This document shows, one piece after another, positions 634-2,062 of a DNA stretch of 47,214 nt (positions are counted from its first letter, which is position 1; each line of letters starts with the position of its first letter). Source of the stretch: Akkermansiaceae bacterium (lineage in GTDB: Bacteria; Verrucomicrobiota; Verrucomicrobiia; Verrucomicrobiales; Akkermansiaceae); the NCBI GenBank assembly GCA_903878115.1, contig CAIRGO010000151.1:1-47214 (forward strand), written 5' to 3'. The position numbers and the translations under genes are program-made. Under the pieces are notes generated by a model. The model ran no database searches and was not told where the DNA came from. It saw nothing but the letters and a program-made list of their open reading frames with translations.

Positions 634-710
<77 letters not shown>

Positions 711-804
711 ATTACCTTTGTGCGCCTTGCGGCGCGGGAAAGAAAAACTAGCAGTATTATGATTTTACGCAAGTATTTTTTTGTTAAATTTTCCTCTATT
801 TCTC

Positions 805-822
805 GATCGTGAATTCACGATC
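805..822. repeat. Perfect 18-bp palindrome
   Basis: GATCGTGAATTCACGATC reads the same on both strands, with no spacer. It lies between the two tRNA copies, just upstream of the promoter-like block of copy 1. It is followed on the plus strand by ATTAAAAAAG, so on that strand it would form a weak hairpin. It could be a regulator-binding site or a structural element. No regulator can be named. Confidence 0.7.
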
Positions 823-854
823 ATTAAAAAAGCCCAGATTCCTATGCCGCGCCT

Positions 855-879
855 GGCGCAGGTGAAGCAGGACTGCGCC
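855..879 (-). terminator. Hairpin 3' of the tRNA-like second copy (possible relic terminator)
   Basis: GGCGCAG (855-861) pairs with CTGCGCC (873-879). On the minus strand this lies directly 3' of the decayed tRNA copy and is followed further on by GGGCTTTTTT (around 829-838), which resembles the end of the working terminator at 597-632. It may therefore be a remnant or variant terminator. Confidence 0.4.
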
Positions 880-883
880 TAAT

Positions 884-964
884 GATTGCGGGATTATTTG
901 AACCTCTGATCCCGCTGAGCGGGATTATGAGCCTGACGAGCTTACCTAGCGGCTCCATCCCGCG
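884..964 (-). pseudogene. Decayed initiator-tRNA copy
   Basis: On the minus strand it begins CGCGGGATGG and keeps most of the D-arm and the 5' half of the anticodon arm including CAT. The 3' side of the anticodon stem and the T-arm are replaced by an inserted hairpin (ATCCCGC-TGA-GCGGGAT, 909-925). The 3' end again holds ATCCCGC before CAATC instead of CCA. It cannot fold as a normal tRNA. The acceptor sequence GCGGGAT and its complement thus occur several times and offer alternative pairings. It is either a dead tRNA gene or a small structured RNA. The upstream promoter-like block is still present. Confidence 0.75.
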
Positions 965-1144
965 ATCACCTTTATGCGCCTTGCGGCGCGGGAAGTAAAA
1001 ACGAGCAGCATTATGATTATTTGTAGGTATTTTTTTGTTTAAATTTTCTCGATCATACAAAAACAGATAGGTGCGGCACCCGATCCTCTCCAAGTGCACG
1101 CTTGACTTATCGATGCAAATACCTAAGTTATCGAAATATTCACG

Positions 1145-2062
1145 ATGCCTGAAGGAATTACAGATCCGCTAGAAGAAGATTTTTTTCGCTTCCTTGATAC
1201 AGAGCGAACATCTTCTGTATTGACCTTGCGCAATTATCGCGCAGCACTTTTGTCGTATCGGTCATTTCGCGGGGAAAAATTTACCAACTGGCGCGATGCC
1301 AGTGCTGATGATTTTCGCGCATGGTTATTTGCACTGATGAAACAGGATCTATCGCGCGCGACGATTCGTCTTCGATTTGCGGCGGTGCGTTCCTTTTATA
1401 AATTTCTCGTTCACCGTCGCGGGCTGGCCAAAAGTCCCGCCGCAGATTTGCAATTGCCAAAAGCCGAACGCAAATTGCCAGTGGTGTTAAACATTTCTCA
1501 GATGGAGGAATTGCTATCGTTGCCTAACAAAATGCAAGGAGAGAAGCCCAAAATCGCATGGTTAGCAGCGCGTGATACAGCGTTGTTAGAGTTATTCTAT
1601 TCCTGTGGCTTGCGGATTTCTGAATTGAGGATGTTAGATGTGAGAGACATCGATTTCATTAGCGAATCATGCCGGGTGATGGGCAAAGGATCAAAAGAGC
1701 GACTCATTCCCATCGGCGGTCCAGCGTTGGCAGCTTTACAACGCTACCGACAAGCCGCCGCCATTACCAACGGGCCAATTTTTCTGAGCTCGCGTAAAAC
1801 TCGGATCACCCAGCAAGCGATTGATTTATTGCTGAAAAAATATCTAAGCGCTTCATCAATCCCCTTCGCGATTTCACCGCACAAACTGCGCCACAGCTTT
1901 GCCACACACATGTTAGATGCAGGTGCCGACTTGCGGAGTGTGCAATCGTTGTTAGGTCACGCATCGCTTTCTACGACTCAAATCTATACCCATGTCACCC
2001 GCGAGCGTTTGCGTAAGGCATACGATACCGCCCATCCACGAGCCCAATCATCTGCTTTATGA
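1145..2062 (+). CDS. xerC: Tyrosine recombinase, XerC type
   Basis: The 305-residue product has the usual length of XerC/XerD, which resolve chromosome dimers at dif together with FtsK. An N-terminal SAM-like core-binding domain (about 8-95) is followed by the catalytic domain (about 110-290). The full catalytic set is visible: R157 in CGLRISEL, K181 in GKGSKERL, H246 and R249 in HKLRH, H272 in LLGHASLS, and the nucleophile Y281 in TQIYTHV. The C-terminal YDTAHPRA resembles XerC more than XerD. The stop overlaps the next start by four bases (ATGA), so the two genes are probably translated together. The gene sits about 430 bases from the duplicated tRNA-fMet region, so an integrase-like role cannot be excluded, though the family fit to Xer is strong. 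Confidence 0.88.
   Translation: MPEGITDPLEEDFFRFLDTERTSSVLTLRNYRAALLSYRSFRGEKFTNWRDASADDFRAWLFALMKQDLSRATIRLRFAAVRSFYKFLVHRRGLAKSPAADLQLPKAERKLPVVLNISQMEELLSLPNKMQGEKPKIAWLAARDTALLELFYSCGLRISELRMLDVRDIDFISESCRVMGKGSKERLIPIGGPALAALQRYRQAAAITNGPIFLSSRKTRITQQAIDLLLKKYLSASSIPFAISPHKLRHSFATHMLDAGADLRSVQSLLGHASLSTTQIYTHVTRERLRKAYDTAHPRAQSSAL

Follow-up and report, generated by a model that had tools for sequence, protein, structure and literature searches.

The second copy of the initiator tRNA gene in the stretch of Akkermansiaceae DNA analysed here (47,214 nucleotides, below called the window) is most likely what remains of a very small mobile element resident in tRNA genes, now without its nuclease gene. 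In complete elements of relatives, a GIY-YIG gene of about 90 residues lies between two versions of the tRNA region, one of them intact and functional and the other disabled by a conserved hairpin, which replaces part or all of the anticodon arm. At the window locus such a gene would once have been present; neither a gene nor a recognisable remnant of one is found there. The feature as it stands today is degraded and probably has no present function.

The window locus

The following features are present at the locus:
634 to 710, minus strand: intact initiator tRNA gene (ARAGORN; Rfam RF00005, 64.8 bits)
711 to 883, minus strand: stretch separating the copy from the intact tRNA; it contains the upstream block of the intact gene and no nuclease gene
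about 884 to 964, minus strand: decayed initiator tRNA gene copy marked by the hairpin (aligned with the intact gene; no tRNA call)
896 to 904, minus strand: retained T-loop GGTTCAAAT (direct reading and alignment)
909 to 925, minus strand: hairpin ATCCCGC-TCA-GCGGGAT, which replaces the 3' strand of the anticodon stem and the variable loop (direct reading; relatives have the same structure at this tRNA position)
925 to 933, minus strand: GGCTCATAA, the anticodon-loop end of the tRNA 5' half (direct reading)
965 to 1055, minus strand: second version of the upstream block, its promoter motifs altered (aligned with the ten intact genes from the genus)

The initial annotation had described a second copy of the initiator tRNA and its upstream block about 254 bases from the intact gene, with the 5' half kept. 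This was borne out. The copy represents the 5' part of the gene and lies on the upstream side of the intact one with respect to transcription; together with its preceding block it (about 884-1055, minus strand) matches that locus with 88% identity over 124 query bases (E 5.6e-37). Reading of the sequence likewise confirmed the retained anticodon CAT, the palindrome ATCCCGCTGAGCGGGAT at 909-925 and the repeated heptamer GCGGGAT/ATCCCGC, found at 957-963 (5' acceptor strand), within the palindrome, and at 888-894 close to the 3' end. The statement that the T-arm had been replaced has to be corrected. In the alignment the T-loop remains and the palindrome occupies the place of CCTGAAGGT, which is the 3' strand of the anticodon stem plus the variable loop, while the loss in the T-arm is limited to the 3' strand of its stem. 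Furthermore, the D-arm of the copy is altered relative to the intact gene, including an inserted A. The 5' strand of the T-stem reads AGAGG in the copy, GTAGG in the intact gene of the window and again AGAGG in the tRNAs of three congeners (G003, G005 and G006). Since this strand matches the congeners and not the window's own gene, the 3' part of the copy may be foreign.

A working second tRNA was considered and rejected, because neither ARAGORN nor Rfam (at the gathering threshold) places a tRNA call at the copy; these calls, the alignment and the folding agree that it lacks a tRNA fold in which anticodon arm and T-arm are paired. Initiator tRNAs usually have a third G-C pair in the anticodon stem, and in the intact initiator tRNA (634-710) the stem TCAGG/CCTGA has an A-U pair where this third G-C pair is expected. 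The copy is adjoined by a plus-strand ORF of 305 aa (window 1145-2062) that resembles a Xer-type tyrosine recombinase by eye.

The window locus thus contains a tRNA copy in which a hairpin replaces the 3' strand of the anticodon arm (909-925, by pattern match) and, alongside, an intact tRNA of the same isotype (634-710). No nuclease gene lies between the two, and for this reason the locus is regarded as a relic and not as a complete element. A nuclease-profile search of the whole window genome at E<=1e-6 gave a sole match on another contig (C329) and none in 711-883. A GIY-YIG ORF on that contig (G000:C329:928-1158, locus L096) encodes 100 aa and had no adjoining tRNA or hairpin when tested.

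Recurrence of the hairpin at the same tRNA position

The pattern GGCWCATWRTCCCGC-N0-14-GCGGGATC was scanned over 386 genomes of the order with the reversed pattern as control. The chimera of anticodon loop and hairpin (GGCTCATAA-TCCCGC-n-GCGGGA-TC) was found at 23 places in 20 of the 386 genomes, the window included, and the reversed control gave none. At 10 of the 23 places an intact GIY-YIG ORF of 92-126 residues (stop to stop), carrying the GIY-YIG motif, directly precedes the hairpin and terminates at the TAA of the tRNA repeat. The ORF ends in GGC TCA TAA nine times and in GGC ACA TAA once, and in relatives with the nuclease gene its stop codon lies inside GGCTCATAA. A C-terminal remnant of the nuclease is recognised by eye at four further places (in G034 also by profile). 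Neither an ORF nor a remnant directly precedes the hairpin at the other nine, the window among them; two of these (G020 and G347) do have a nuclease gene, on a different contig end or some 500 bp ahead. An intact Met-cat tRNA is present in the 3-kb stretch at 16 of the 23 places, and in G082 two identical units 356 bp apart are followed by the start of a third ORF.

In the window genome itself the bare palindrome (TCCCGC-n2-6-GCGGGA) occurs at seven places and the control at none, so that it is somewhat over-represented. The one of the other six places that was inspected (C213) has no tRNA-like flank by eye, and once the anticodon part is added to the pattern the window place alone remains in its genome.

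The conservation of the hairpin was analysed on nuclease-linked copies, for which 101 scored loci gave 53 segments and 42 distinct copies. L123 and L146, with a normal anticodon arm at the matched place, and the odd segment L156/L221 were left out. Read at a fixed offset, the stem pairs at all six positions in 37 of the 42 copies, and two of the five others (L126, L157) look merely shifted by eye. At two stem positions changes are found on both sides, that is, as paired changes, and the loops comprise 36 different strings, a few of which are offset artefacts. Some copies (in L172, L130, L177, L156, L255 and L261) have a second hairpin in or beside the T-loop.

Because other genomes have the hairpin at this tRNA position too, mostly with a GIY-YIG nuclease gene next to it, it is not a product of chance decay. 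The description of the window feature as a decayed tRNA copy therefore stands, and the view of its hairpin as an accident of that decay does not.

Arrangement of the elements in relatives

In the commonest order the intact tRNA comes first; a minority of loci has the hairpin copy first, together with a 5' half and an upstream region of its own. In L123 and L146 the upstream region and the 5' half are followed by the hairpin copy, the nuclease gene and the intact tRNA, whereas L160 has the order hairpin copy, intact tRNA, nuclease gene. In G369 a hairpin copy and then the intact tRNA extend to the contig end, with a more decayed hairpin copy further upstream. The window has this hairpin-first order without the nuclease gene.

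The distribution is patchy. Within the genus, a complete element is present in G002 across two contig ends, a truncated nuclease start (E 3.5e-13) in G006, a hairpin copy in G009 and a decayed hairpin copy, 15 kb from the tRNA gene, in G001. In G003, G004, G005, G007 and G008 the searched surroundings of the tRNA gene showed no trace of an element. Comparison of occupied with empty flanks gave one locus each way, L057/L110 fitting and L060/L179 being opposite, with the terminator region itself repeated in many loci. In L135, L139, L140 and L152 the beginning of the nuclease ORF, or the leader, reappears after the hairpin copy, which points to decayed tandem arrays.

These data bear on a first alternative, in which the initiator tRNA gene was simply duplicated in tandem and the copy then decayed at random, the palindrome being created by a local template-switch mutation with no mobile element involved. 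The copy clearly arose by tandem duplication and its motifs are degraded, and the hairpin arms correspond to the acceptor sequence of this very gene. However, the order has 19 other genomes with the same hairpin at the corresponding tRNA position, the hairpin is also found in relatives with a different acceptor, and the hairpin-first order is shared with L123, L146, L160 and G369. The recurrence of the hairpin by itself already largely refutes this explanation, and we consider it unlikely.

The GIY-YIG nuclease and its link to tRNA-Met(cat)

The Pfam GIY-YIG domain (PF01541) was matched in the two proteins of relatives that were tested (E 5.7e-12 and 3.7e-12), which places the nuclease of the relatives in a homing-endonuclease superfamily. 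A profile built from nine such proteins (A1) has invariant Y, Y, R, H and E columns, which we take to be the catalytic residues. The search with A1 gave 80 named loci (80 kept of 85), and tRNA context was scored, with no hairpin required, for all 80 and for 14 of 16 newly fetched loci (L230 and L231 left out).

Close relatives (E<=1e-25) account for 61 of the 80 named loci, 54 of them with at least 450 bp of upstream sequence. A tRNA-Met(cat) on the same strand lies within 700 bp upstream in 39 of these 54 and a tRNA of another isotype in none; ARAGORN finds no tRNA within this distance in the remaining 15. A hairpin with T-loop is present in 39 of 57 close relatives. Among the 50 with both flanks, the tRNA 3' end is repeated downstream in 29 (control stretch, 3), and 26 combine tRNA, repeat and hairpin. 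Of the 19 weaker loci, 15 could be scored for an upstream tRNA and 13 have one (6 Met, 6 Asp, 1 Ala). A scan of the phylum yielded matches at E<=1e-15 in 17 of 387 genomes, and the 14 newly fetched loci show Met-cat in 11 of 14 and the repeat in 8 of 12, with 0 for the control. Genomes with Met-type loci come, among others, from Verrucomicrobiota, Lentisphaerota, Kiritimatiellota, Planctomycetota and, in one case, Abawacabacteria.

Over 30 bases, the repeat downstream is identical to the tRNA 3' end of the same genome in 16 of the 80 named loci, although these ends vary from genome to genome. This points to a duplication of host sequence at insertion or to later conversion.

The nuclease genes are under purifying selection, with dN/dS of 0.08-0.35 in 22 pairs, some of them overlapping. 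No family match was obtained in NCBIfam. PADLOC reported partial PDC-S14 matches in eight of nine members (best E 1.5e-5); these were read as reflecting the common GIY-YIG domain. No relatives of the nuclease were found in viral contigs or in the plasmids searched, and a phage search gave one weak match (33.8% identity, E 6e-6). The nearest solved structures by sequence are the UPF0213 GIY-YIG proteins with PDB entries 1zg2 and 1ywl (E 2e-8 and 4.4e-5), which are labelled as hypothetical proteins only.

Other tRNA isotypes

A second profile (A2), run on nine Bacteroidota genomes chosen for their matches in the earlier A1 search, identified 36 places, 30 of which were examined. An upstream tRNA (Asp, Ala, Val, Asn, Leu or Phe) is present at 22 of the 30, and one genome alone (G733) has four isotypes. 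A hairpin followed by the T-loop occurs at 12; 11 of these places belong to Asp, Ala or Val, and at the twelfth no tRNA is recognised. Hairpin copies at Asn, Leu or Phe were absent among the 30.

On a tree of 76 proteins (quick method, 87 columns) the isotype changes six times, which is the minimum for seven states. Shuffled isotypes required 27.9 changes on average and were as low in 0 of 200 trials, a figure that is too favourable because eight Bacteroidota places were entered twice and the Met group coincides in part with phylum. Met (46 rows) and Asp (17 rows) are each confined to one side of a supported branch. The tRNA isotype follows the clade of the nuclease protein.

Promoter motifs and RNA folding

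The upstream promoter-like block had been described as conserved, which the alignment of ten genes contradicts. CTTGC precedes all ten intact genes of the genus (nine congeners plus the window gene) and is CCTAC in the copy, near 1023-1027. CTAG in the -10 region of the intact window gene is CTCG in the copy (1002-1005). With the promoter elements assigned by eye, the motifs of the copy thus look degraded. A stem GCGCC-GCAA-GGCGC just before the tRNA (window 711-740 and 965-992) is common to both copies and, in varied form, to most congeners.

A switch between RNA folds through the repeated acceptor sequence had also been suggested. By eye, most of the printed hairpin copies have no 5' strand of the acceptor, and in L123/L146 this strand is CTGCAGG, so that the partner strand is absent or different in relatives. 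Conserved alternative pairing between hairpin and acceptor was accordingly not seen in the relatives in this comparison by eye, as distinct from a formal covariation test. Since the pairing of the hairpin arm with the acceptor depends on the acceptor sequence of this genus, the idea of an RNA switch finds no support. In computational folding, the check proposed at the outset, the copy RNA folds better than shuffled sequences (z -2.76, 3 of 200 as good), much as the intact tRNA does (z -2.17, 7 of 200).

A hairpin copy that works as a small RNA, either as such a switch or as a tRNA-like decoy against a tRNA-cutting GIY-YIG protein, would fit this better-than-shuffled folding as well as a stem conserved by pairing with free loops, and an enzyme that cuts tRNA would likewise be compatible with a separate nuclease clade for each isotype. 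Nevertheless, the degraded promoter motifs of the window, the different or missing switch partner and the lack of the 5' half, and hence of a tRNA-like shape, in most printed copies (by eye) make this improbable, somewhat more so than plain duplication.

Comparison with known systems

A direct repeat of the tRNA 3' end with preserved tRNA function is characteristic of integrase-borne islands at tRNA genes, and the elements described here share both properties. They differ in that the unit spans a few hundred bases, has a GIY-YIG gene and contains a hairpin in the repeat. That the window copy is an attachment-site repeat left after the loss of such an island is the least probable of the explanations considered: the repeated 3' halves of the initiator tRNA that G018, G021, G023, G037 and G054 have at distances of 5-72 kb from the gene do resemble such sites, but those of G018, G023, G037 and G054 have a normal anticodon-stem strand and no hairpin, the window copy has the 5' half and the promoter region, a nuclease gene lies between the repeats in relatives, and hairpin copies border GIY-YIG genes with no integrase in the unit itself.

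A group I intron in the cyanobacterial tRNA(fMet), studied by Bonocora and Shub in 2001, reportedly carries an endonuclease for the anticodon region. Here too a mobile nuclease gene would be aimed at the anticodon region of the initiator tRNA. That intron is self-splicing, in contrast to the window, in which no Rfam intron is present and the copy does not provide two complete exons around an intron. Since the hairpin copy has no 3' anticodon-stem strand, splicing could not restore the tRNA.

SegB is a free-standing GIY-YIG homing endonuclease of T-even phages (PMC13096335, PMC2988022). The former report states that SegB cleavage peaks within tRNA genes, with the motif RAWTSGAAC at 23 of 83 sites, proposes recombination between the segB 3' end and a tRNA gene via common microhomology, and notes that free-standing GIY-YIG enzymes cut donor alleles inefficiently (PMC13096335). 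By our reading, the reverse complement of RAWTSGAAC is a tRNA T-loop sequence. Both systems place a GIY-YIG nuclease gene among tRNA genes, and SegB cuts within them. In contrast to SegB, which is phage-borne and is said to favour no particular isotypes, the nucleases described here are chromosomal, about 90 residues long and isotype-specific by clade. Furthermore, a hairpin-marked tRNA copy is part of the unit here.

Proposed mechanism and significance

In the proposed mechanism, the nuclease would recognise the gene of one tRNA isotype and cut DNA that is free of the element. Recombination via the tRNA sequence on either side of the hairpin would then insert the element and keep one working tRNA. 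A crossover on the T-arm side would give the common order, and a crossover on the side of the 5' half would give the order seen in the window. The hairpin may protect the spare copy from cleavage or prevent it from working as a tRNA. The sequences themselves show the arrangement, the nuclease family, selection on its gene, the agreement of isotype with protein clade, the patchy occurrence and the decay in the window; cutting, homing-like mobility and this role of the hairpin are what we infer from them. In occupied genomes the hairpin alters one tRNA copy and an intact tRNA sequence remains; since this intact gene is presumably cuttable, immunity of the classical homing type is left unexplained.

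More broadly, these loci could represent a widespread and undescribed class of minimal mobile elements (about 300-360 bp), consisting of a GIY-YIG nuclease of about 90 residues and a hairpin-marked tRNA copy, which colonise bacterial tRNA genes isotype by isotype. Here, the hairpin copy would serve as the recombination site and the nuclease clade would set the tRNA gene that is entered. We consider this wider proposal about as likely as not. Minimal elements of tRNA genes are apparently undescribed: neither hairpin-marked tRNA copies nor such elements were found described in searches of the open-licence part of PubMed Central.

The interest of the window relic is the element family that was reached from it. 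If the proposal is true, many small GIY-YIG ORFs beside tRNA genes of Verrucomicrobiota and Bacteroidota would be enzymes of mobile elements and not stray repair genes. The elements would rank with the smallest mobile elements that encode a protein, each adapted to a single tRNA isotype, and would provide a natural series for how a nuclease of about 90 residues reads a tRNA gene. They would also serve as a model for the survival of a cell with a selfish element in its initiator tRNA and would account for broken tRNA copies like that of the window.
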